A stretch of DNA of 64,000 nucleotides from Sulfitobacter sp. DSM 110093 (GTDB taxonomy: Bacteria; Pseudomonadota; Alphaproteobacteria; Rhodobacterales; Rhodobacteraceae): contig NZ_CP085167.1 in assembly GCF_022788715.1 (NCBI RefSeq), positions 62,001 to 126,000 on the forward strand. The letters run 5' to 3'. Position numbers and translations under genes: made by a program. A model generated the notes under the pieces. The model was not told where the DNA came from, searched no databases, and worked only from the letters and a program-made list of their open reading frames with translations. This document shows positions 10,769 through 49,645 of this stretch, in pieces (within the stretch, counting starts at the first letter, position 1; every line of letters starts with the position of its first letter).

Positions 10769-11915
10769 AGATTGGCAACAGGGCGGCTTCGGTCTTTATA
10801 TCCACTGGCCATTTTGCGAAGCGAAATGCCCCTATTGCGACTTCAATTCGCATGTCAGCCGTACAATCGACCAGCGCGCTTGGCGCGACGCCTACCTAAG
10901 CGAATTACAGCGCGCTGCCGATGAAACCCCGGGGCGTGTGCTCAACGCGGTTTTCTTCGGTGGCGGCACACCCAGCCTAATGGACCCTGACGTCGTGGCA
11001 GACATTATTTCTGCCATTAGACGCCACTGGCCCACAGCCAATGATCTCGAAATCACACTCGAGGCCAATCCCGGCTCTGTAGAGGCAAGCCGCTTCGCCG
11101 CCTATCGGCAGGCGGGCGTTTCACGGGTCTCGATGGGCATTCAGGCCCTAAACGACGCGGATCTTAAACGTCTTGGTCGGCTACACTCGGCCCAAGAGGC
11201 TATGACAGCCTTTGATATTGCACGCGGCACGTTCGAGAGGGTGAGCTTCGATCTTATCTACGGTCGGCAGGATCAAACCGCTGCCCAGTGGAAAGCAGAG
11301 CTAAAGCAGGCCCTATCCCTCGCGATAGACCATATTTCCCTCTATCAACTTACAATCGAACAAGGCACTGCATTTGGGGATCGGTACGCGCGCGGCAAGC
11401 TGCGTGGCCTGCCGGACGAAGACCTCGGCGCGGATATGTTCACCTTGACGCAGGACATCTGCAATGAAATGGGCATGCCCGCCTATGAGGTTTCAAACCA
11501 TGCACGGGACGGTGCACAATCCCGGCACAACCTGATCTATTGGCGTTATGGCGACTACATCGGAATTGGCCCCGGTGCGCATGGAAGAATAACCTTGGAC
11601 GGTCAAAAGCTAGCTACGGTGGCCTATAGCAATCCGCAGCGCTGGCTTGATGGTGTTTCGAAGTGCGAATCCGAAAAGCCCAGAGCAATGATAAGCAGGA
11701 GCGAACAAGCAACCGAGTTTCTTTTGATGGGCTTACGCCTGAAAGAAGGCGTTGACCTCAACCGCTACGCCGCCATTGCCGGGCATGAAATTGATCAAGA
11801 CGCTGTCAATCACTTGCAAGACCTCGGTATGGCGGCGCGCGAAGGTGATCGATTAACCGTTTCAGATCAGGGCGTTATCGTATTGAACGCCGTGATCGAA
11901 ACGCTTCTTCCCTAG
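10749..11915 (+). CDS. hemW: heme chaperone HemW, radical-SAM family
   Basis: HemW is a HemN-like radical-SAM protein that acts as a heme chaperone rather than as coproporphyrinogen oxidase. The iron-sulfur motif CxxxCxxC is present as CEAKCPYC at residues 23-30, followed by FFGGGTPSLM, the SAM-binding glycine motif, and GIGPGAHGR. The start is uncertain: no ATG is available before the conserved FGLYIHWPFC, and the candidates are TTG at 10749 or TTG at 10761, both inside the end of rdgB, with weak ribosome sites. The end overlaps convergent parB by four bases. Confidence 0.9.
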   Translation: MRAVLAEDWQQGGFGLYIHWPFCEAKCPYCDFNSHVSRTIDQRAWRDAYLSELQRAADETPGRVLNAVFFGGGTPSLMDPDVVADIISAIRRHWPTANDLEITLEANPGSVEASRFAAYRQAGVSRVSMGIQALNDADLKRLGRLHSAQEAMTAFDIARGTFERVSFDLIYGRQDQTAAQWKAELKQALSLAIDHISLYQLTIEQGTAFGDRYARGKLRGLPDEDLGADMFTLTQDICNEMGMPAYEVSNHARDGAQSRHNLIYWRYGDYIGIGPGAHGRITLDGQKLATVAYSNPQRWLDGVSKCESEKPRAMISRSEQATEFLLMGLRLKEGVDLNRYAAIAGHEIDQDAVNHLQDLGMAAREGDRLTVSDQGVIVLNAVIETLLP

Positions 11916-12811
11916 GCTCCGCCCAACAGGCGGCAGATCTCGTCCAACTGATCAAGCGATGTATAATGCAATGTTACCTTGCCAGCTTCTTGGCCGGACT
12001 TGTGGTCCAAAACCACCTTCATTCCGAGGTTGGCTGACAAATCGCCTTCAAGCGCCTGTGTGTCAGCATCTTTCTCTGAGCGCTGCGAGAGACGGTCTTT
12101 ATTTACCATATTACCACGCTCGCCAGCATGGTCTTTCTTGACCAAAGCCTCGGTCGCCCGTACAGATAGACCGCCCTTGACGACTTGCTGAGCCAATTTC
12201 ATCGGGTCTTTCGCCGGGATCAGGGCCCGCGCGTGGCCAGCACTCAGCTCATTCTGGCGAACCATCTCTTGAACAGGGTCAGGAAGGTTCAAAAGCCGCA
12301 GCAAATTTGCAATATGACTCCGGCTTTTTCCGAGCGCCTCGGCCATCTTTTCCTGTGTATGCCCGAACTTGTCCATCAACTGTCGATAGCCAGCAGCTTC
12401 TTCTACCGAGTTCAGGTCCGCACGCTGAATATTCTCAATGATTGCAACTTCAAGAACTTCAACATCGGTGAATTCGCGCACGATGACCGGTAGGCTATGA
12501 ACCTTCGCAATCTGTGAGGCACGCCAGCGGCGCTCACCGGCAACGATTTCAAAGTTACCATCGCTCATCGCACGAACGATCAGCGGTTGGATAACGCCCT
12601 TCTCGCGAATTGAAGCCGCAAGATCGTCAAGATTATCTTGCTCAAATCGCTTACGCGGCTGGTCCGGATTTGGCTTGATCCGCTCAATTGGGATGAACTG
12701 CTCCGCCGCCGCGGCCCCCTTAGCGGCAACGCTTTCTGTCTCTGCTACATCAGCCATCAGCGCCGAAAGCCCCCGGCCAAGGCCCCGTTTACGCTCTTGT
12801 CTATCTGCCAT
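11912..12811 (-). CDS. parB: chromosome partitioning protein ParB
   Basis: ParB binds parS, hydrolyses CTP and spreads as a clamp to mark the origin region for segregation. The 299-residue protein has the N-terminal GRGLSALMAD (ParA-contact region), the CTP-binding motifs around GERRWRA (92-98) and ENIQR (126-130), a helix-turn-helix at about 152-172 (TQEKMAEALGKSRSHIANLL), and a C-terminal dimer domain. It is the last gene of the mnmE-mnmG-rsmG-parA-parB block, 12 bases after parA. Two perfect parS sites, its expected targets, lie upstream in rsmG and mnmG. Confidence 0.97.
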   Translation of the reverse strand: MADRQERKRGLGRGLSALMADVAETESVAAKGAAAAEQFIPIERIKPNPDQPRKRFEQDNLDDLAASIREKGVIQPLIVRAMSDGNFEIVAGERRWRASQIAKVHSLPVIVREFTDVEVLEVAIIENIQRADLNSVEEAAGYRQLMDKFGHTQEKMAEALGKSRSHIANLLRLLNLPDPVQEMVRQNELSAGHARALIPAKDPMKLAQQVVKGGLSVRATEALVKKDHAGERGNMVNKDRLSQRSEKDADTQALEGDLSANLGMKVVLDHKSGQEAGKVTLHYTSLDQLDEICRLLGGA

Positions 12812-12823
12812 ACTGCCACCTTA

Positions 12824-13621
12824 TTAACCATTGTTTTTTGTTAGCTCCGACGCCAAGTCCCGGTAAGCCACCGCCCCTTTCGAGGAAGGGTCATAGCTTA
12901 GAACTGGCATGGCAAAGCTTGGCGCTTCACTTACCCGAACATTCCTTGGGATCATTGTTTGGAAGACGAGTTCTCCCAAATTCGCGCGTGCGTCATTCTC
13001 GACCTGTTGCGACAGGTTATTGCGCCGATCGTACATCGTAAGAAGGACCCCCTCAATGCGCAGGTCTTTGTTCCCACTTTGGCGGACCTCACGGATTGTG
13101 AGCATAAGCTGCGATAGCCCTTCGAGTGCGAAGAATTCGCTTTGTAACGGGACGAGCACAGAATGCGCAGCAATCATCGCATTCACCGTCAAAAGGTTCA
13201 AAGACGGAGGACAATCAATGAGGATATAATCGAAATGGAACTGATCCATCTGAGTTTGGCGCAAAGCGTCATGGAGGAGGAAGCTTCGTTTTTCATTCGC
13301 GAACAGTTCGATATCAGCGGAGCTGAGGTCCACGGTTGCCGGTACGATGAAAAGACCTTCGGTTTCGGTCTTCTGTATAACCTGTTCCGGCTCGATATCG
13401 TCTAGAAGAAGTTCGTATGTTGTATACTCGCGATCCTCAACCTCGATCCCGAGACCCGTGGATGCGTTCCCCTGCGGGTCGAGGTCCACGACAAGGATCC
13501 GCTTCCCAGCTTCGGCGAGCGCAGCAGCTAGATTAATTGTAGTGGTCGTTTTCCCAACACCACCTTTCTGGTTCGCAATAGCGATGATTTTTGGTCCGGT
13601 TGGCCGGGAAAGGTCAGACAC
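12824..13621 (-). CDS. parA: chromosome partitioning ATPase ParA
   Basis: ParA is the Walker-type ATPase that moves ParB-parS complexes. The deviant Walker A box KGGVGKTTT is at residues 19-27 with both signature lysines (Lys19 and Lys24). The DYILIDCPPSLNLLTVNA Walker B region is in the middle, and LVPLQSEFFALEGLSQL follows. At 265 residues it has the short chromosomal type without an N-terminal DNA-binding extension. Its start overlaps the rsmG stop by eight bases, so it is translated as part of the gid-par operon. Confidence 0.97.
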   Translation of the reverse strand: MSDLSRPTGPKIIAIANQKGGVGKTTTTINLAAALAEAGKRILVVDLDPQGNASTGLGIEVEDREYTTYELLLDDIEPEQVIQKTETEGLFIVPATVDLSSADIELFANEKRSFLLHDALRQTQMDQFHFDYILIDCPPSLNLLTVNAMIAAHSVLVPLQSEFFALEGLSQLMLTIREVRQSGNKDLRIEGVLLTMYDRRNNLSQQVENDARANLGELVFQTMIPRNVRVSEAPSFAMPVLSYDPSSKGAVAYRDLASELTKNNG

Positions 13622-14219
13622 GAGTGATTTCCTTGATTTTCAAAATGGCCGCGTCTGGGTCTGTCTTACTTTGAATAGCATCGCATTCATAAGACCACAG
13701 GTGCCGCGCAGCTTCATCTTCTTCCTTCCAGCTTTTGCCTTTGGGAAAAAGTGCCACGCCCAACGGATCAAGATGCATCTCACAGAAACCAAGGAGGCTC
13801 GTAAGATCACTTAATGCACGTGCCGAGAGGACATCCGCTTGTTGGTACTGGAGTAGCTCTATCCGTTCATTCTCTACCGTGGCAGAAAGCTCTAACTCCC
13901 GGATCGCCGTACGTAGAAAGGCACACTTCCTCTGGTCGCTCTCGACAAGCGTAACTTTAAATCTCTCTTTTTCTTGATTGAGTATGGCCACCACAATTCC
14001 GGGAAACCCTCCGCCGCTGCCTAGATCCACCCAGTGACCTTCGGTTTTGACAAGCGAGAAGATCTGGGTCGAATCCATGATGTGCCGTTCCCAGAGTTCG
14101 TCCAAACTGGTTTTAGAAACCAGGTTGATTTTCGGGTTCCACCTTCGAACTAGCTCGGAAAACATGTTCAGCTTGTCAAATGTTTCACGTGAAACATTTA
14201 GCGCTTCGAGATCGCTCAT
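13614..14219 (-). CDS. rsmG: 16S rRNA (guanine-527-N7)-methyltransferase RsmG
   Basis: RsmG (GidB) methylates N7 of G527 of 16S rRNA using SAM. The 201-residue protein shows RHIMDS (45-50) and the SAM-binding loop [11 protein letters not shown] (64-74). Its ATG overlaps the mnmG stop (ATGA). Codons 8-13, encoding N-V-S-R-E-T, are a perfect parS site, so the N-terminal protein sequence is constrained by centromere function. Confidence 0.96.
14181..14196. promoter_or_regulatory. parS: parS centromere site 1, inside rsmG
   Basis: The sequence TGTTTCACGTGAAACA is the perfect 16-bp palindromic parS consensus bound by chromosomal ParB proteins. It lies within codons 8-13 of rsmG, about 0.6 kb upstream of parA and about 5 kb from the predicted origin. 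Confidence 0.95.
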
Positions 14220-16087
14220 GCAGACTTCTTCCTCTCGCCCCGTTTAATCCGCGCTAGAATCAATGTAAGCGCAGCTGGAGTCATTCCGTCTATTCTAGCC
14301 GCCTGAGCCATTGTTTCGGGTCGCGCCTGCGAAATCTTGAACTTTAACTCATTCGAGAGACCTGAGAGTTCATTGAAGTCAAAAGAATTTGGGATTTCAA
14401 GCATCTCATCTTTTTTCAGGACGTCGATCTCTTTTCGCTGGCGCTCAATATAGGTTGCGTATAGCGCATCGCGTTCGACCTGCCGGCGAACCTCGTGCGA
14501 AAAGTCAGCAAGCTGAGGTACAAGCGGGATCAGGTCCTCAAACAGGACATTGGGAAAGGCCAATACCTGCAGCCCAGTCCGCTTTGATCCATCTTGATTG
14601 ACGTTGATGCCGGAAGAAAGAAGTTCGTTAGGAATAAATACCCGCTCAGACAAAAGCGCCTTAGCAAGTTCAAGCGATACAACTTTCGCTTTGAAACTCG
14701 TCATTCTTTCCTCTGAAACACACCCGAGTTCTAGACCCACCGGAGTCAACCGCTGGTCGGCGTTATCAGCGCGCAAGGACAATCTGAATTCTGCGCGGGA
14801 TGTGAACATGCGATACGGCTCTGTGACGCCACGGGTTGTAAGATCGTCGATCATTACGCCGATATAACTATCAGACCGGCTGAATGCGACACTATCCCGA
14901 CCCTGTGAGGCAAGCGCTGCATTCAATCCCGCTACCAGACCTTGCGCAGCTGCTTCCTCGTAACCGGTTGTGCCGTTGATCTGACCGGCTAGGTACAAGC
15001 CTGGCACGGACCGCACAGATAAAGTTAGCGACAGCGCCCGGGGATCAACGTAATCATACTCGATTGCGTAACCCGGCTGAAGAATAACCGCGTTCTCCAA
15101 ACCGACCATACTACGGACATAGGCTTCTTGCACATCTGCAGGCAGTGACGTTGAGATACCGTTTGGATATACAGTATGGTCGTCCGCCCCTTCGGGCTCT
15201 AGAAAGACCTGGTGAGATTCTTTGTCAGAAAAGCGCACCACTTTATCTTCGATTGAGGGGCAGTAGCGCGGCCCTATCCCATCGATATGCCCCCCATACA
15301 TCGCCGACCGTTCGAGGTTGTCACGGATGATTTCGTGAGTCTTTGGATTGGTATGCGTGATACCGCAGGCAACTTGGGTGGCTGAGATATGTTCCGACAT
15401 AAACGAAAAAAGAATAGGTTCTTCGTCTCCCGGCTGTGTCTCTAGAGCATCCCAGTTTATAGTACGGCCGTCTAGCCGTGGGGGGGTGCCAGTTTTCAGT
15501 CGGCCCATCGGAAGATCGAAGGAATCGATCCTCTCGGCCAACCTAACGGAAGCCTTATCTCCCATCCGGCCCCCATGATGGGATTCGTCGCCGATATGGA
15601 TCACACCCCGCAAGAACGTACCTGTCGTCAGAACCACCGAACCGGAACTTAGCTCTCTCCCGTCTGCAAGACAAACGCCAGTTACAGACCCAGCGTCAAT
15701 CAAAAAATCAATAACCTCTCCTTCAACGATCGAGAGGTTCGACTGTGATTCAATTTCGCGAAGCATTTCGTTGCGATAGATCTTTCGATCAGCTTGCGCG
15801 CGCGGGCCTTGAACTGCCGGCCCCTTTCTCCGGTTAAGAAGGCGAAATTGGATGCCGGCCTTGTCTGCTACGCGACCCATCACGCCGTCCATAGCATCAA
15901 TCTCACGGACCAGATGGCCCTTGCCCAAACCACCAATTGCGGGATTACAGGACATTACACCAATGCCATCGCGGCTCATTGTCACCAGTGCGGTATTGGC
16001 CCCTAGGCGAGCGGATGCGTGAGCTGCCTCAGCGCCCGCATGCCCCCCACCAATCACGATCACATCAAAATGTTTCACGTGAAACAC
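14216..16087 (-). CDS. mnmG: tRNA uridine-34 5-carboxymethylaminomethyl modification enzyme MnmG
   Basis: MnmG (GidA) works with MnmE to add carboxymethylaminomethyl groups to wobble U34 of tRNAs, using FAD, NADH and 5,10-methylene-THF. The FAD-binding [10 protein letters not shown] is at residues 13-22, [19 protein letters not shown] follows, and the C-terminal helical MnmE-binding domain is complete (623 residues). The start is ambiguous: GTG at 16087 has a GGAG only one or two bases upstream, whereas GTG at 16078 (giving [12 protein letters not shown]) has the same GGAG at a normal eight-base spacing. A perfect parS spans both candidates. The stop overlaps rsmG. Confidence 0.96.
16071..16086. 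promoter_or_regulatory. parS: parS centromere site 2, at the mnmG start
   Basis: A second perfect TGTTTCACGTGAAACA palindrome. It covers codons 1-6 of mnmG as read from the GTG at 16087, and contains the alternative GTG start at 16078. It is 1.9 kb from parS site 1 and about 3.5 kb from the predicted origin. Confidence 0.95.
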
Positions 16088-16091
16088 TCCA

Positions 16092-17378
16092 TCATTTACC
16101 TACGCAAAAACTGGTGAAGATCTCATCCAGTAAGTTTTCAACATCAATTCGCCCGACAAGAGTTTCAAGCGCTCGTATGGCGAACCGAAATTCTTCCGCT
16201 GCCAGATCATAGCTATCCGGCCCTAGGCTTAGAATAGCATCAACTTCCGACAAACACGAGACAGCTTCCTCTAAAGCGACGCGATGTCGCTCATGGGTCG
16301 CTAAACCAATGGTAGAACTCCGTTCAGAAAGGGTTGACCGGATCCGATCAATAAGTTCGGACACGCCCAGCCCGGTTTTTCCCGAAATCCCATCACCCAT
16401 GTCGCCAGTGAGATCTGCCTTAGGTCTCAACACGATATCCTCAGGCGTTGGGGCAATCATAAGTGTCTCCCCCGACGACGCAAGGAAGACCCTTAAATCG
16501 GCCGACTTTGCGCGCGCAATCGCTCGCTCAACACCGATCGATTCGATCTGGTCCTCGCTATCACGCAAGCCAGCTGTGTCGAGAAGAGTGACTGGAAGCC
16601 CCCCGAGGTCCATCCGTACTTCAATAACGTCTCGGGTGGTTCCAGCGATTTCTGATGTTATCGCTGCATCACGACCGGCAAGCGCGTTAAGAAGAGTCGA
16701 TTTTCCAGCATTAGGCGCACCGATGATCGCAATCTCAAAGCCGCTTCGCACACGTTCAGCGACATGAGTTCCGCTAATTTCGGCTTTAAGTTCCGCACTC
16801 ACCTTTTGGAGCAATGCATCGACTTCAGGGGTCACATCAAGCGGAACTTCCTCATCCGCAAAGTCGATTGTGGCCTCCAACAAAGCAGCCGCCCTAATCA
16901 GATCTTTGCGCCAATATTCAACCCGTGCGCCGAGGTGCCCGGACAGAACCCGGACCGCTTGCTTTCGCTGAGCTTCGGTTTCGGCTTCGATCAAATCCGC
17001 AAGTCCTTCGACCTGGGCCAGATCAAGCTTTTCGTTTTCTAACGCCCGCCGCGTAAACTCTCCAGCGTCGGCCATTCGGGTATCTGGGAAATCCGATAGC
17101 AACGACAGCATCGCACGGACCACGGCGATTGAGCCGTGGAGGTGCAGTTCAACCACATCCTCGCCGGTAAACGAATTCGGCTCAGGAAAGCTCAGCACCA
17201 AGGCCTGATCGATAACCTCTCCATCAGCGCCCCGCAGGGTACGCAGTACGCTATCGCGCCCGATCGGGCGTTTACCGGAGATCTTGTGCGTGATCCCAAA
17301 GGCCTGCGGACCTGAAATGCGGATCACCGCAATCCCGGCACGGCCCGGCGCTGACGCTTGGGCGAATATCGTATCCAT
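16092..17378 (-). CDS. mnmE: tRNA modification GTPase MnmE
   Basis: MnmE (TrmE) is the GTPase partner of MnmG in U34 modification. The 428-residue protein begins [20 protein letters not shown], with the folate-binding N-terminal domain, and has an embedded G domain with GAPNAGKST at 220-228, the switch-II DTAGLRD at 267-273, and the C-terminal catalytic CVGK (425-428). It lies directly upstream of mnmG with only a few bases between them, so the two partner enzymes are made together. Confidence 0.97.
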
Positions 17379-17410
17379 AATTCACTAACCTACTGTTATC
17401 TTTAAATAAC

Positions 17411-18682
17411 TTAGGTGTTCATAGAGTCGAAGAAGTCAGAATTTGACTTTGTTTGCTTTAGTTTACCCAGCAGGAATTCGATCGCGTCAGTCGTGCCCAT
17501 CGGGTTGAGAATACGGCGCAACACGAACGTCTTTTGGAGGTCGACTTTATCGACCAATAGGTCTTCTTTCCGTGTGCCGGATTTAAGAATGTCGATCGCT
17601 GGGAAGACGCGTTTGTCAGCGATCTTGCGATCAAGCACGATTTCAGAGTTACCGGTACCTTTAAACTCTTCAAAGATCACTTCGTCCATCCGGCTGCCCG
17701 TATCGATCAGCGCAGTCGCGATGATGGTGAGTGAGCCGCCCTCTTCGATATTCCGTGCGGCACCAAAGAAGCGTTTCGGGCGCTGCAATGCGTTGGCATC
17801 CACACCGCCGGTCAGAACCTTGCCGGAGGACGGTACAACGGTGTTGAACGCACGCCCCAAACGCGTGATAGAATCGAGGAGGATCACGACGTCACGCTTA
17901 TGTTCGACAAGACGTTTGGCCTTTTCGATCACCATCTCGGAAACGGCCACGTGACGGGTCGCGGGTTCGTCAAAGGTGGAAGACACAACCTCCCCCTTCA
18001 CCGAACGCTGCATGTCGGTGACTTCTTCGGGGCGTTCATCGATCAGCAAGACGATTAAGTAACATTCTGGGTGATTTTTTTCGATGCTGTTTGCGATGTT
18101 CTGCAACAACACGGTTTTACCTGTGCGCGGTGGGGCCACGATCAGCGAACGCTGGCCTTTACCGATTGGCGACACAAGGTCGATAATCCGGGCTGAGCGG
18201 TCCTTGATCGTCGGGTCGTCGACCTCCATCGTCAGGCGCTCATCGGGGTACAGTGGCGTCAGGTTCTCAAAGGCAACCTTGTGGCGTGCTTTTTCGGGCG
18301 CTTCGAAGTTGATCTTGGTCACTTCAGTCAGCGCGAAATAGCGTTCGGTGTCGTCAGGCGCTTTGATCAACCCTTCGATGGTGTCCCCGGTGCGCAGCGA
18401 CCATTTGCGTATCATGTCGGGCGAGACATAGATGTCATCAGGGCCCGGCAGGTAGTTTGCTTCCGGAGAGCGCAGGAAACCGAATCCATCTTGCAACACT
18501 TCCAAGACACCGTCGCCTGAGATCTCCCAACCATCATCCGCGCGTTCGCGGAGAATTTGGAACATCATCTCGCCTTTACGCATGGTCGATGCGTTTTCGA
18601 TTTCCAGCTCTTCGGCCATGGCGAGCAGGTTTTTCGGCGTCTGCGCCTTAAGATCAGCGAGGTTCAGCGTTTCGATTGTCAT
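17411..18682 (-). CDS. rho: transcription termination factor Rho
   Basis: Rho is the hexameric RNA helicase that ends transcription at rut sites. The 423-residue protein has the N-terminal Rho_N segment ([18 protein letters not shown], 15-32), the cold-shock-like RNA-binding fold with [15 protein letters not shown] (58-72), and the ATPase core with APPRTGKT at 183-190. The ATG at 18682 is downstream of a sigma-70-like promoter. rho between hemJ and mnmE is the usual order in Rhodobacterales. Confidence 0.98.
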
Positions 18683-18772
18683 GGGGCATCCTGTTCAGCC
18701 GCAGCAGAATGCGGGCTGGTCGATCATTTGAATGTGGCAAGCAGAAACCGCCCCGGACGGGACAGTGGCGCA

Positions 18773-18801
18773 GATATAGGCAAGGGTGGCGCTTGAGTCA
18801 A
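18773..18801 (-). promoter_or_regulatory. predicted sigma-70 promoter of rho
   Basis: On the minus strand TTGACT (18801-18796) and TATATC (18778-18773) are 17 bases apart, five and four of six consensus matches. This leaves a leader of about 85 bases before the rho ATG, in which self-attenuation by Rho is possible, as known for rho leaders in other bacteria. Confidence 0.5.
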
Positions 18802-18806
18802 TTGCT

Positions 18807-19256
18807 TCAGAATTTCACGATGACAGAGAAGACGATAACGATCATCAGCAGCGTCGGAACTTCGTTCAGCATGCGAAACTGACGGCCAGTGACGCTACTT
18901 TGGCCCTGTTCGACCGACTTTACCTGTTTTTTTAGCCAAACATGGAAAACCGTCATTGCGATGACGCTTGCGCCTTTCGTCCAAGGCCAGATCATCGTCC
19001 AGTCCACAATTCCGGGCGTTAGAACGAGGGCGAGGCCGAAAACCCATGTTGCCATCATCGCGGGCCGCATGATGACCTGAGCGAGCTTGTATTCCATCAT
19101 CGAGAAAGTGTCGTGCATTTGACCGGCGGAACCGGCCTGTTCCACGTGATGCACGAAAAGACGTGGAAGATAAAACAGCGCGGCCATCCAACTGATGACG
19201 GACACGATATGGAGCGCTTTGATCCACGGATAGGCAAAGCTGAGAAGGTCAAACAT
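18807..19256 (-). CDS. hemJ: protoporphyrinogen oxidase HemJ
   Basis: HemJ is the membrane-bound protoporphyrinogen IX oxidase used by many bacteria that lack HemG and HemY-type oxidases. The 149-residue protein has about four hydrophobic segments. The N-terminal stretch WIKALHIVSVISWMAALFYL contains conserved His16, and LFVHHVEQ and VIMRPAMMATWVFGL also fit the family. The gene is immediately left of the predicted replication origin and reads away from it. Confidence 0.93.
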   Translation of the reverse strand: MFDLLSFAYPWIKALHIVSVISWMAALFYLPRLFVHHVEQAGSAGQMHDTFSMMEYKLAQVIMRPAMMATWVFGLALVLTPGIVDWTMIWPWTKGASVIAMTVFHVWLKKQVKSVEQGQSSVTGRQFRMLNEVPTLLMIVIVFSVIVKF

Positions 19257-19278
19257 GGGTAGGGCTCCGGTGTGCGTG

Positions 19279-19325
19279 CTTCTTTCTTAATAAATAAGAA
19301 AAGAGAAAAGATGTAGTTGATTGTA
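19279..19325. other. AT-rich tract, candidate DNA unwinding element
   Basis: About 45 bases dominated by A and T in an otherwise GC-rich genome. It includes the inverted repeat TTCTTA-ATAAA-TAAGAA at 19284-19300 and then purine-rich AAGAGAAAAGA. It lies next to the DnaA boxes, as expected of the segment that melts first, but it also overlaps the hemJ promoter region. Confidence 0.55.
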
Positions 19326-19397
19326 GGGATGCGGATTCCTGTGGATTAATGATTTATACCATTGGTTATCAACAGGTGAACAAACTTCGCGGACCCC

Positions 19398-19406
19398 TGT
19401 GGAAAA
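19398..19406 (-). promoter_or_regulatory. DnaA box in oriC
   Basis: TGTGGAAAA on the plus strand, which reads TTTTCCACA on the minus strand and matches the DnaA consensus TTWTNCACA in full. Confidence 0.75.
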
Positions 19407-19654
19407 AACCTCTCCGATTCGGGAAAATTTAAATCCTTCAAAGACTTGTCAGCGTATTTTCCGGGGGACAAAATGTATCGAACCGGGGATAACCAGTGAA
19501 CTTGAGAGGTTATACGCACAAGTAGCTTATCCCTATCCATCGGGGTGGGAATCGGCGACAAAAACCGCGACTCGGGGCGAGATTTGCGGGCTTGTGCTGT
19601 CAACGTTTATCTCGCAGAACAAATCCTCAAGATTTGCGCCAGTTCATCACAGGG

Positions 19655-19663
19655 TTATCCACA
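19655..19663 (+). promoter_or_regulatory. perfect DnaA box overlapping the maf start codon
   Basis: TTATCCACA, the canonical high-affinity DnaA box. Its last base is the A of the maf ATG, so DnaA bound here should also block or modulate maf translation initiation sequences or transcription. Confidence 0.85.
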
Positions 19664-20262
19664 TGCCGAAAAAAATCGTCCTCGCCTCCGGCTCGGAGAT
19701 ACGTGCACAGCTGCTGGCCCAAGCCGGGGTTGAGCATGAGGTGATCCCGGCGCGGATAGATGAAGAGATGATCACCGCCGCACTGCGAGCTGAAGGTGCC
19801 AAGCCACGCGATATCGCCGATACATTGGCCGAGATGAAGGCCCGTAAGATAAGCGAAAAGAACCCCGGCGCACTGGTCCTCGGCTGCGATCAGGTATTGG
19901 AGCATCGCGGCGAGATGTTGCACAAGCCACGCGACCGCGATGATGCCATCACCCAGTTGCTGCAGCTTCGCGGGGGCCGGCATTCTCTTTTGGCGGCTGC
20001 GGTGCTTTACCAAGACGGTGAACCACTTTGGCGGCATATTGGGCAGGTGCGACTGCGAATGCGCGAAGCGACCGACGCTTATATTGCCGACTACGTCGAT
20101 CGAAACTGGGAGAGTATCCGTCACGCAGTGGGCTGCTATAAGTTAGAAGAAGAAGGCGTACGACTGTTCAGTCAAATCGAGGGGGATTACTTTCACGTCC
20201 TCGGTATGCCATTTCTTGAGTTGCTGAACTATCTGACGCTGCGCGGAGACCTCGAGACATGA
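19663..20262 (+). CDS. maf: Maf-family nucleoside triphosphate pyrophosphatase
   Basis: Maf proteins hydrolyse modified or canonical pyrimidine NTPs to monophosphates. Starting at ATG 19663 gives 199 residues, with KKIVLASGSEIRAQLLAQAG at the N-terminus (the nucleotide-binding ASGS start), a central VLGCDQV with the catalytic Asp, and HKPRD. The frame stays open upstream to 19399, but the upstream part has no homology-like features and is origin DNA, so the start is placed at MPKKIV. It overlaps aroE by four bases (ATGA) and heads a maf-aroE-coaE-dnaQ operon. Confidence 0.92.
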   Translation: MPKKIVLASGSEIRAQLLAQAGVEHEVIPARIDEEMITAALRAEGAKPRDIADTLAEMKARKISEKNPGALVLGCDQVLEHRGEMLHKPRDRDDAITQLLQLRGGRHSLLAAAVLYQDGEPLWRHIGQVRLRMREATDAYIADYVDRNWESIRHAVGCYKLEEEGVRLFSQIEGDYFHVLGMPFLELLNYLTLRGDLET

Positions 20263-21092
20263 GCCTGTCGAAAATCCCCCTTGCTGGAGTGATTGGATCA
20301 CCCATCGCGCATTCCAAATCGCCGCAGTTGCACGGCCATTGGCTAGAGACCTACGGTATTGCAGGCCATTACGTCCCCCTTGATGTTGAGCCGAGCGATC
20401 TGGAAGAGGTGCTAAGAACGCTGCCCAAGATGGGCTTTGTTGGGGTGAACCTGACCCTTCCGCATAAAGAAGCAGTGATGAAGATTGCAGATCTCATTAC
20501 TGATCGCGCCACACTGATCGGCGCGGCCAACACATTGATATTTCGTGCAGATGGCAAAATCCATGCGGACAATACGGATGGCTACGGGTTTATCGAAAAC
20601 CTCAAAGTTGGCGCACCTGAATGGGATCCGAAGGCCGGGACGGTGGCACTGCTGGGCGCAGGCGGCGCGGCGCGGGCTGTGGTTTCTTCGCTTCTTGACG
20701 CGGGCGTGCCTGAGATCTGCCTGTCGAACCGGACCCGCGTGCGCGCCGAACAATTGCAGCACGACTTTGGCAGCCGCGTGAAGGTTGTCGATTGGGTGCA
20801 GGCAGGCAATATGCTGGCGCACGCGAATTTAGTAGTGAACACCACTTCGCTTGGCATGATCGGCAAAGGGGCATTGCGTGTGCCGCTGGACGGCTTGCGC
20901 CCTGGCACAGTGGTGACAGATCTCGTTTATACGCCCCTGCGCACGCATCTTTTGGAAACGGCCGAGGAAATGGGCTGCGTCACGGTCGACGGCCTTGGCA
21001 TGTTGCTCCACCAGGCGGTCCCCGCGTTTGAGCGTTGGTTTGGCCAACGGCCAGAGGTTGACCGCGCCACGCGAACGGCGGTGCTGCGCTGA
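20259..21092 (+). CDS. aroE: shikimate 5-dehydrogenase
   Basis: AroE reduces 3-dehydroshikimate to shikimate with NADPH in aromatic amino-acid synthesis. The 277-residue protein has GSPIAHSKSPQLH (13-25, shikimate binding), NLTLPHK with catalytic Lys70, DNTDGYG with catalytic Asp107, and the NADP loop GAGGAARA (133-140). The start overlaps maf and the stop overlaps coaE by one base, so the operon is tightly coupled. Confidence 0.96.
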   Translation: MSLSKIPLAGVIGSPIAHSKSPQLHGHWLETYGIAGHYVPLDVEPSDLEEVLRTLPKMGFVGVNLTLPHKEAVMKIADLITDRATLIGAANTLIFRADGKIHADNTDGYGFIENLKVGAPEWDPKAGTVALLGAGGAARAVVSSLLDAGVPEICLSNRTRVRAEQLQHDFGSRVKVVDWVQAGNMLAHANLVVNTTSLGMIGKGALRVPLDGLRPGTVVTDLVYTPLRTHLLETAEEMGCVTVDGLGMLLHQAVPAFERWFGQRPEVDRATRTAVLR

Positions 21093-27047: not shown

Positions 27048-28355
27048 CTAAAGAACGTAGCGGCTAAGATCCGTCGAACGGGTCAATTCGCCCAAGTTCT
27101 TTTCAACAAAATCCGCATCGACGGTGATCTCTTGCCCCGAACGGTCTGGCGCGTCGAACGAGACTTCCTCGAACACCCGTTCCATCACGGTATAGAGCCG
27201 CCGCGCACCGATGTTTTCAACCGACGTGTTCACATCCGCCGCAATTTTGGCCAGCGCTGCGATGCCTTCTTCGGTGAAGGTGACGGTCAGTTGCTCTGTC
27301 TCCATCAGGGCAGTGTATTGGCGGGTCAGGGCGTTGTCGGTTTCGGTCAGGATGCGGACAAAATCCTCTTCGGTCAGCGCCCGCAGTTCCACGCGGATCG
27401 GCAAACGGCCCTGAAGTTCGGGCAGCAGATCCGATGGTTTAGCGATGTGGAACGCACCCGAAGCGATAAAGAGGATATGATCGGTTTTCACCGGGCCATG
27501 TTTGGTCGAAACGACTGTGCCTTCGATCAGCGGCAACAGATCGCGCTGCACACCTTCACGTGAAACATCACCACCACGCGCGTCAGAACGGGCGCAGACC
27601 TTGTCGATTTCGTCAAGGAATACGATACCGTTCTGCTCTACGGCTTCGATGGCGGCGCGGTTCACGGCCTCATCATCCAGCAGTTTGTCGGCCTCTTCGC
27701 CCAACAGCACCTCATAGCTGTCAGCAACGGCGAGGCGCTTTTTAGTGGTACGCCCGCCCATGGCTTTGCCGAACAAATCGCCAAGGTTCATCATCCCTGC
27801 GCCGCCGCCGGGTTGGCCGGGAATGTCCATCATCGGGAACGGGCTGGAGGTGTCGGCGACCTCAAGCTCGATCATCGTGTCGTCCAATTCACCGTTGCGG
27901 AGTTTCTTGCGGAACATCTCACGCGTTCCATCACGGGCGTCAGTCCCGGCGATGGCGTCGATCACGCGCTCTTCGGCGGCTTGCTCTGCCTTGGTCTTCA
28001 CATCCTCGCGCATGAATTCCCGGGTCATGGCGATAGAACTGTCGAGCAGATCGCGGATGATCTGTTCGACGTCCCGGCCGACATAGCCGACTTCGGTAAA
28101 CTTGGTGGCTTCGATCTTAATAAACGGCGCACGGGCCAACTTGGCTAAACGGCGGCTGATCTCGGTCTTACCGACGCCGGTGGGGCCGATCATCAAGATG
28201 TTTTTGGGATACACTTCGTCGCGCAGATCATCCGACAGCTGCTTGCGTCGCCACCGGTTGCGCAGCGCCACGGCGACGGCGCGTTTGGCGTCATTCTGGC
28301 CGATGATATAGCGGTCCAGTTCGGATACGATCTCGCGGGGGGTCAGGTCAGTCAT
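27048..28355 (-). CDS. hslU: HslU, ATPase subunit of the HslVU protease
   Basis: HslU (ClpY) unfolds substrates for the HslV peptidase. The 435-residue protein has the Walker A loop GPTGVGKT at 57-64, Walker B in [11 protein letters not shown], the sensor region (GRLPIRVEL), the I-domain between them, and the C-terminal LSRYVL tail that inserts into HslV. It overlaps hslV by four bases. The [10 protein letters not shown] region is encoded by sequence with a 13-of-16 match to parS. Confidence 0.97.
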
Positions 28356-28912
28356 GCGGTGATTTTCTCCACGGTGAGTTTGCCGTTGGTGTAGACGCAG
28401 ATGTCGGCGGCGATCGCCATGGCGTCGCGGGCGATGGTTTCGGCATCACGGTCGCTTTCCATCATGCCGCGTGCCGCGGCGAGGGCGTAGTTCCCACCCG
28501 AACCAATCGCGGCGACTTCGTGCTCCGGCTCCAGCACATCGCCCGCGCCGGTGATGACCAGCAGGTCTTTCCCGTCGGTCACGATCAACATCGCTTCCAG
28601 CTTTTGCAGGTACTTATCGGTGCGCCAGTCCTTCGCCAGCTCAACACTCGCACGGGCCAGTTGCCCCGGTGTCGCTTCCAGCTTGGCCTCCAGCCGCTCC
28701 AGCAGTGTAAACGCATCGGCAGTAGAGCCCGCAAACCCCGCCACAACGTCATAGCCGCCGGGGCTAAGTTTGCGCACTTTGCGCGCGGTGCCTTTGATTA
28801 CGGTCTGGCCAAGGCTGACCTGTCCGTCACCGGCAATCACCACTTCGCCGCCTTTTTTGACGCCAATGATCGTGGTCCCGTGCCAACCGGGGAAATCGTC
28901 GTTCTGTGCCAT
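28352..28912 (-). CDS. hslV: HslV, peptidase subunit of the HslVU protease
   Basis: HslV (ClpQ) is the proteasome-like threonine peptidase. With start at ATG 28912 (AGGAGG seven bases upstream) the product is 186 residues, beginning [18 protein letters not shown]. The catalytic Thr is expected at residue 13 after removal of a 12-residue leader, longer than the single Met of the E. coli enzyme but common in alphaproteobacteria. [20 protein letters not shown] and [14 protein letters not shown] are family signatures. A longer frame from 28954 is rejected on the ribosome site. Confidence 0.96.
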
Positions 28913-48691: not shown

Positions 48692-49645
48692 TCATTCTTC
48701 CTTTAGTGGGCGGGTCAGCAGAGATTTCATAGCGCCAGCCACATCTAACTGGTTGTCGAGCAATCCGGCAACTGCACGCGTAATCGGCATGTCGAGCGCG
48801 GCCTCGCGGGCCAGCGCATCGACAGCTCGTGCGGTGGCGGCGCCTTCGACCGTGGTCGACGGGTCAAAGGGCGTGCCTTGGCCCAGCGATTGCCCCAGCC
48901 GGTAGTTGCGCGATTGCTCGGACGTACAGGTCAATGTCAAATCGCCAAAGCCTGAAAGCCCGGCAAGCGTAGTGGGTTCGGCGTTTAGATGCGCGGCAAG
49001 ACGCTGCATTTCGGCATATCCGCGCGTCATCAGGGCCGCTCGTGCGCTTTCGCCCAGACCCGCCCCAATCGCGGCCCCGCTTGCGATCGCGACCACGTTC
49101 TTCAGCGCTCCACCTAATTCCGCACCGATTGTATCCGTGGTGCGGTATAGCCGCAGGTTCGCGGTGGTCAGTTCCGCTTGAAGGTATTTTCCTGAATCTG
49201 CATCTGCGCAGGCCAAGGTCAGCGCCGTGGGCAACCCCCGCGCGATATCGGCGGCAAAGCTTGGCCCCGTGAGGATCGCAGCCTTCGCATCGGGGATCGT
49301 CTGCGCAATCACGCTCACTGGTCCGACACCGCTGCTGAGTTCGATGCCCTTGCAGCAGGCAACCAGATGTTTCCCGTGAAGCAGGGTCGCGTGTTCTTCC
49401 AGTACGCTGCGCAGCTTTTGCATCGGGACGGCAAGCAGCAGTATGTCCGCTCGACACCCGAGGGTGAGGCTATTGGTCACCGAAAGGCGATCGGGAAATG
49501 GGCAGTCCGGCAGACGTTTGCTATTCTCGCGTCGGTCAGCCATGTCGCCTGGATCGCGGGCCCAGAGTGTCACCGGACCTTTGCCCGCCAGCGATATCGC
49601 CAGCGCCGTGCCAAAGGCCCCTGCGCCCAGAACCGATACGCTCAT
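48692..49645 (-). CDS. gpsA: glycerol-3-phosphate dehydrogenase [NAD(P)+]
   Basis: GpsA makes sn-glycerol-3-phosphate from dihydroxyacetone phosphate for phospholipid synthesis. Starting at ATG 49645, which overlaps the tsaD stop (ATGA), it is 317 residues with the NAD-binding [11 protein letters not shown] at the N-terminus, the catalytic Lys in [16 protein letters not shown], and [21 protein letters not shown] frame opening at 49705 lies in tsaD and is discarded. Confidence 0.96.

Follow-up and report, generated by a model that had tools for sequence, protein, structure and literature searches.

A predicted DnaA-type replication origin in the hemJ-maf spacer of the main chromosome of Sulfitobacter sp. 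DSM 110093

The genome of Sulfitobacter sp. DSM 110093 (4.34 Mb) is assembled in six contigs, of which the main chromosome, C1, comprises 3,434,207 bases. The 64,000-nucleotide stretch analyzed here, called the window below, corresponds to C1:62001-126000, and positions without a prefix refer to it. A gene-free spacer of 406 bp (19257-19662) separates two divergent genes, hemJ on the minus strand (18807-19256, Pfam UPF0093) and maf on the plus strand (19663-20262, Pfam Maf). An initial annotation of this DNA had predicted a chromosomal replication origin here, and both the position it gave and the outward direction of the genes on either side agree with the gene boundaries, hemJ ending at 19256 and maf starting at 19663. 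Beyond hemJ the gene order leftward is rho, mnmE, mnmG, rsmG, parA and parB, while maf is followed rightward by aroE and coaE. Among named relatives, Sulfitobacter dubius (90%) and S. delicatus (89%) come closest in the identity of Maf. The G+C content is 0.46 over the spacer and the first three maf codons; in 2-kb windows it is 0.51-0.55 across 11-21 kb and about 0.58-0.60 in most of the remainder. A search of positions 18600-20400 against Rfam, at E-values up to 1, gave no match.

In the 407-bp segment made up of the spacer and the first base of maf, a single predicted DnaA box is perfect, four deviate at one position and six at two, in line with the one perfect and several near-perfect boxes first proposed. 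The perfect box, TTATCCACA (19655-19663, plus strand), overlaps the A of the maf start codon, and its place is taken by a perfect TTATCCACA in 25 of the 53 hemJ-maf loci described below. The boxes with one mismatch are TAATCCACA (19340-19348, minus strand), TTATCAACA (19366-19374, plus), TTTTCCACA (19398-19406, minus), which is replaced by a perfect TTATCCACA in three related loci (L023, L025 and L027), and TTATACGCA (19510-19518, plus). The first of these is the nearest to the probable unwinding element, and its core belongs to the best-conserved columns of the spacer, as does the TTATCC core of a weak DnaA-like site with two mismatches, TTATCCCTA (19527-19535, plus). Taken alone, the perfect box carries no statistical weight, since TTATNCACA occurs 29 times in the genome and the reversed control pattern 28 times. 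The cluster is far above chance: in 2000 dinucleotide shuffles of this segment, boxes with at most one mismatch averaged 0.32, and no shuffle had as many as the five observed. It is also the densest cluster in the 820 kb of C1 (24%) that were scanned, among them the whole window and the initial 20 kb of the contig, where dnaA lies; any other 407 bp of this sequence holds at most three boxes.

DnaA boxes between divergent genes might belong only to the hemJ/maf promoter, with DnaA acting as the transcription factor of these two genes and the true origin lying nearby, for example at the low point of the skew at 34 kb in the window or at dnaA. Such a role would suit the perfect box on the maf start codon, from which DnaA could repress maf. 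However, the scanned 820 kb, the dnaA region among them, hold no second cluster of this size, and the spacer contains a single weak sigma-70-like site, the same number as its shuffles. The comparison with relatives speaks against a promoter alone as well, as boxes at a distance from the maf start persist, the spacer length is nearly constant, and boxes and AT-rich tract remain where hemJ is gone.

This comparison is based on Maf searches, which matched 39 of 40 genomes of the genus and 145 of 149 genomes of the family. The first set consists of the best 30 of the 39 genus loci and the best 30 of the 145 family loci, giving 58 distinct loci including the present locus itself. In 53 of the 58 hemJ lies divergently upstream of maf, at a distance of 351-426 bp (392-426 bp in 50 of the 53). 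These 53 spacers, the present one included, contain 222 boxes with at most one mismatch, where 21.6 are expected, and 44 perfect boxes, where 0.84 are expected, so that the conservation of the boxes, a check proposed with the initial annotation, favors an origin. A second set comprises 80 named loci, eight of which overlap with the first set; of the 72 new loci one was too short to judge, 64 have a hemJ-maf spacer and seven lack hemJ beside the spacer. The 64 spacers have a median length of 406 bp and 232 boxes, with at least two boxes in 57 of them. In the 12 distinct loci without hemJ, five from the first set and seven from the second, the left neighbor is invariably rho. The rho-maf gap in these loci measures 508-601 bp, contains one to six boxes with at most one mismatch and, in all 12, a G-free run of 25-55 nt on the bottom strand. 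The persistence of both elements where rho replaces hemJ indicates that the origin outlasts a change of neighbor.

Plain sequence identity was tried as a further sign of an origin and rejected. The spacer is 88-92% identical to those of four close relatives, which is no argument for an origin because other spacers of the neighborhood match equally well. A 414-bp spacer at 28356-28769, for instance, is 91-93% identical in four close relatives and thus as conserved as the predicted origin.

An open frame of 88 codons, which begins at 19399 and runs into maf, raises the question of whether the right half of the spacer encodes an N-terminal extension of Maf. The peptide that it would encode hardly varies in its last half among the six closest genomes, a number that includes the present one. 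Against this, the variable columns are spread evenly over the three codon positions (18, 14 and 18 of 88 each), as opposed to 17, 9 and 54 of 88 in the first 264 nt of maf, three of the six closest genomes have in-frame stops, and the frame is open over at least 88 codons in only 6 of 53 loci. The codon-position test thus marks the frame as noncoding; a hidden gene upstream of maf was rejected, and a coding role of this half of the spacer is hardly conceivable.

The AT-rich tract reported in the initial annotation is confirmed by its stability. Stability within the spacer is lowest over the 50 bp at 19281-19330, which rank as the second least stable of the 64-kb window, and the top strand is free of C over 45 nt (19287-19331) beside the DnaA box at 19340. 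The lowest stability of any 50 bp in the window is found at 17365-17414, at the mnmE/rho junction. Judged from its sequence, the C-free tract beside the box is probably the DNA unwinding element, placed at 19281-19331. On the bottom strand, the corresponding stretch without G reaches at least 25 nt within the hemJ-proximal 140 bp of all 53 loci of the first set and of 61 of 64 in the second. Among 640 control segments, for the most part coding sequence, such a run occurs in 0.8%. When 42 loci are aligned on the motif CCTAC, the first 39 positions contain no G at all.

Read on the bottom strand from the box at 19340, the element consists of TAATCCACA, a mostly variable stretch of 13 nt ending in CC, the motif CTAC, a triplet-like stretch, and a region of pyrimidines and AT. 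The triplet-like array occupies 19310-19328 (minus strand) and starts with CCCTAC, its CTAC being 13 nt from the box. CCTAC is found in 43 of 53 loci and CATCATC in 35 of 53; the latter is absent from the clade of the present strain, where the array is degenerate. Both occur in this order within 5 nt in 22 of 53 loci. Triplets with T in the middle reach 7.4 in their longest run, compared with 4.1 in base shuffles; of the 48 loci that could be placed by pattern, 44 exceed the mean of their shuffles.

This arrangement resembles the basal unwinding system (BUS) elements described in PMC8287927, which are composed of a DnaA box, a spacer and DnaA-trios, in that a box, 13 nt ending in CC and CTAC lead through a triplet-like array into an AT-rich tract. 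It departs from them in two respects. The first is the strict trio rule, taken here as a box with up to two mismatches, a spacer of 0-16 nt and at least three in-frame triplets with a central A, and checked for the layout in which the triplets follow the box on its 3' side. Applied on the bottom strand to the hemJ-proximal box, this rule finds no match in the window and matches in 8 of 53 loci; nor does it find one anywhere in the spacer of the window on either strand. Searched anywhere in the spacers, it matches in 26 of 53 loci on the bottom strand and in 24 of 53 on the top strand, as raw counts uncorrected for chance. The second is the family consensus, in which CTACTT is followed by a phase slip of 2 nt before (ATC)3. 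As the strict rule fails at the box at 19340, the array is called trio-like rather than a BUS. The origins of the family might carry a lineage-specific unwinding module made of a DnaA box, a variable stretch, CCTAC, a triplet array and a G-free strand of about 40 nt. The rule is broken at the hemJ-proximal box in 45 of 53 loci, so that either it would need a second, out-of-register array or DnaA would open these origins somewhat differently; we offer this as a tentative and rather doubtful proposal.

On the scale of the chromosome, the base skews were followed over a contiguous 440 kb (C1:3314208..320000, which crosses the contig end and assumes a circular molecule) and in 20-kb samples elsewhere, together 24% of the chromosome. 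Over the 440 kb, the cumulative GC skew has its minimum at position 17410 of the window, 1.8 kb from the spacer, that of the purine skew is at 18696 and that of the keto skew at 27244. The GC-skew minimum proposed as a check of the origin, run over this part of the chromosome, therefore favors it, the minimum being broad: the value is -4645 at 17.4 kb and -4574, or 71 units higher, at 34 kb. The samples have a positive GC skew in 10 of 10 cases from 130 kb to 1.62 Mb and a negative one in 11 of 12 from 1.70 to 3.22 Mb, with the exception of +0.010 at 2.0 Mb. The sign thus changes around the spacer and once more at about 1.62-1.70 Mb, which places the other skew switch there, as compared with 1.80 Mb for exact opposition. 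A dif pattern has a single match, with three mismatches, at C1:3160394, away from the skew change, and so gives no information on the terminus.

The skew picture is weaker in relatives than at the present locus. Among 21 genomes, own included, the 20 kb to the left of the spacer have a negative skew in 20, and the combination of a negative left side with a positive right side is seen in 12; the local minimum over 40 kb lies at most 2.3 kb from the maf start in eight genomes and 12-20 kb to its right in 13. The breadth of the minimum, as well as the position of dnaA at C1:334, about 80 kb from the spacer, are points in favor of a mere hemJ/maf promoter with the origin elsewhere. Weighed against the box cluster and its conservation, that explanation is very improbable, and the spacer itself is preferred as the origin. 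Three equal-scoring Bac_DnaA matches in frames of 288 codons occur at C1:352265, C1:2661171 and C1:3089249; these are probably all the same IstB-like ATPase of an insertion sequence, present in three copies.

The partitioning genes parB (11912-12811, minus strand, with ParB_N, HTH_ParB and ParB_C domains) and parA (12824-13621, minus strand, AAA_31) lie to the left of the spacer, together with two perfect parS sites at 14181-14196 and 16071-16086, which bears out the earlier statement that two perfect parS and parAB are within 8 kb. A search of the whole genome at up to one mismatch found no further parS, so that both genes and the only two parS sites of the genome are located 3-7 kb from the spacer. 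A parS-like site with two mismatches is found at 49368-49383, 30 kb to the right.

The initial annotation had also counted four GANTC sites in the spacer, as targets of the methyltransferase CcrM that mark the firing of an origin. The four sites are there, starting at 19334, 19416, 19549 and 19569 (span 19334-19573), but the enrichment is wider, extending over 11.7-19.6 kb of the window, and the number is not significant alone: shuffles of the spacer contain 1.9 on average (p = 0.10), which makes four sites unremarkable for its composition. They stand out only against a chromosome depleted of GANTC, where the sampled parts have about one site per kb, or about 0.4 per spacer length. All four are kept in the five closest relatives only. 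Other members of the genus in the set have zero to three sites per spacer, with none in L032, L033, L049 and L050, and in the second set, tallied with four of its eight first-set overlaps removed, 22 of 68 spacers have none, while distant spacers contain as many as eight (L079) or 11 (two loci of the second set). GANTC as an origin mark was accordingly rejected.

The GANTC-dense stretch of low G+C (11667-19573, from parB to hemJ) lies on one side of the predicted origin only. In 21 genomes (own and 20 relatives) the 8.4 kb to the left of maf, spacer included, contain GANTC at 2.4 times the control density. Within coding sequence the excess is 1.42 (308 observed and 217 expected with protein, codon usage and third-position G+C fixed), and it is seen in 19 of the 21 genomes. 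On the parAB side the pentamer CCNGG, the one avoided most after GANTC, shows a relaxation of 1.44 compared with 1.53 for GANTC, and this near equality leaves a CcrM-specific explanation unsupported.

It could still be asked whether CcrM gates initiation, methylation of the four GANTC sites licensing or blocking DnaA in the way GATC and SeqA do in E. coli. The genome encodes a CcrM with a RAMA domain, the four sites in 0.4 kb exceed the sampled chromosomal density and persist in the five close relatives, and some distant spacers are rich in them. According to PMC3973325, the origins of Caulobacter contain GANTC motifs and overproduction of CcrM leads to extra chromosomes. The same source describes normal control of initiation in a Caulobacter strain without CcrM, which weakens GANTC and CcrM as an argument for the origin. 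Conservation of the sites among origins, by which a CcrM-gated origin would be recognized, is not found across the genus and the second set, the number of sites is usual for the composition, and the genes on the parB-hemJ side are also rich in GANTC, with CCNGG, which is no CcrM target, relaxed almost equally. Gating by CcrM is therefore unlikely. The region upstream of ccrM itself (L183:600-709, i.e. C1:441432-441541) has two GANTC sites 22-23 bp apart around TTGACC, a pair present in 30 of 30 loci examined (from the 39 of 40 genomes with a match, own included). In 8 of these 30 loci a perfect DnaA box is located about 40 bp before ccrM, on the opposite strand in two.

In PMC6699656, origins of Rhodobacteraceae are recognized by their location near the GC-disparity minimum, a local GC minimum and the vicinity of parAB. 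The hemJ-maf spacer lies near such a skew minimum and in a local G+C minimum, with parAB within 8 kb. With its DnaA boxes it is thus similar to the predicted Rhodobacteraceae origins (the Ori-Finder set of PMC6699656) and to oriC1 of Rhodobacter sphaeroides (PMC6315104); on these features, the flanking genes aside, no difference was found.

The origin of Caulobacter crescentus, Cori, is described in PMC1914354 as a 404-bp region flanked by hemE and a COG1806 gene, with DnaA boxes and CtrA sites, five of each, and an IHF site. The present spacer is of nearly the same length (406 bp), is likewise AT-richer than its genome and contains several DnaA boxes, but its flanks are hemJ and maf in place of hemE and COG1806. 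In this genome hemE is located at C1:131692, 50 kb from the spacer, and a search with the COG1806 profile (PF03618) at an E-value of 0.001 found no match. Neither CtrA boxes of the Cori type (TTAA-N7-TTAA) nor the IHF site WATCAN5WTR occurs in the spacer; one of the former is present in 13 of 53 loci and one of the latter in 17 of 53. It is plausible that the hemJ-maf spacer and Cori go back to the same ancestral origin, whose neighboring genes were lost or have moved. No paper that places a Rhodobacterales origin between hemJ and maf was found in a literature search that did not extend to DoriC, supplements or subscription articles, and the location is therefore not claimed to be unpublished.

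The features by which a DnaA-type origin is recognized, namely a box cluster above chance, proximity to the skew minimum and an AT-rich tract, are all found in the spacer. The skew minimum, the box cluster and the conservation of the boxes support the placement of the chromosomal origin between hemJ and maf, and we infer, with a probability of about 0.95, that this spacer functions as oriC of the 3.43 Mb main chromosome. It is very probably a well-conserved and ordinary DnaA-type origin with an unusual-looking melting element by one of its boxes. By analogy with established oriC biology, from which the binding of DnaA, the direction of opening, the loading of helicases and the action of ParB are taken, DnaA-ATP would bind the clustered boxes, including that at 19340-19348 and the perfect box at 19655-19663. 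From the box at 19340 a filament of DnaA would then extend leftward onto the AT-rich, strand-asymmetric tract at 19287-19331 and open it, two helicases would be loaded at the opened tract, and the forks would depart both ways. Meanwhile ParB, bound to the pair of parS sites that lie 3-5 kb leftward, would move the duplicated origins apart.

The origin of a Sulfitobacter-like chromosome is thereby narrowed to about 406 bp. The landmark formed by rho, usually hemJ, the origin and maf could serve to locate origins of the family without skew analysis, in draft genomes as well, and the conserved melting tract would offer a directly testable case for the reach of the DnaA-trio rule.
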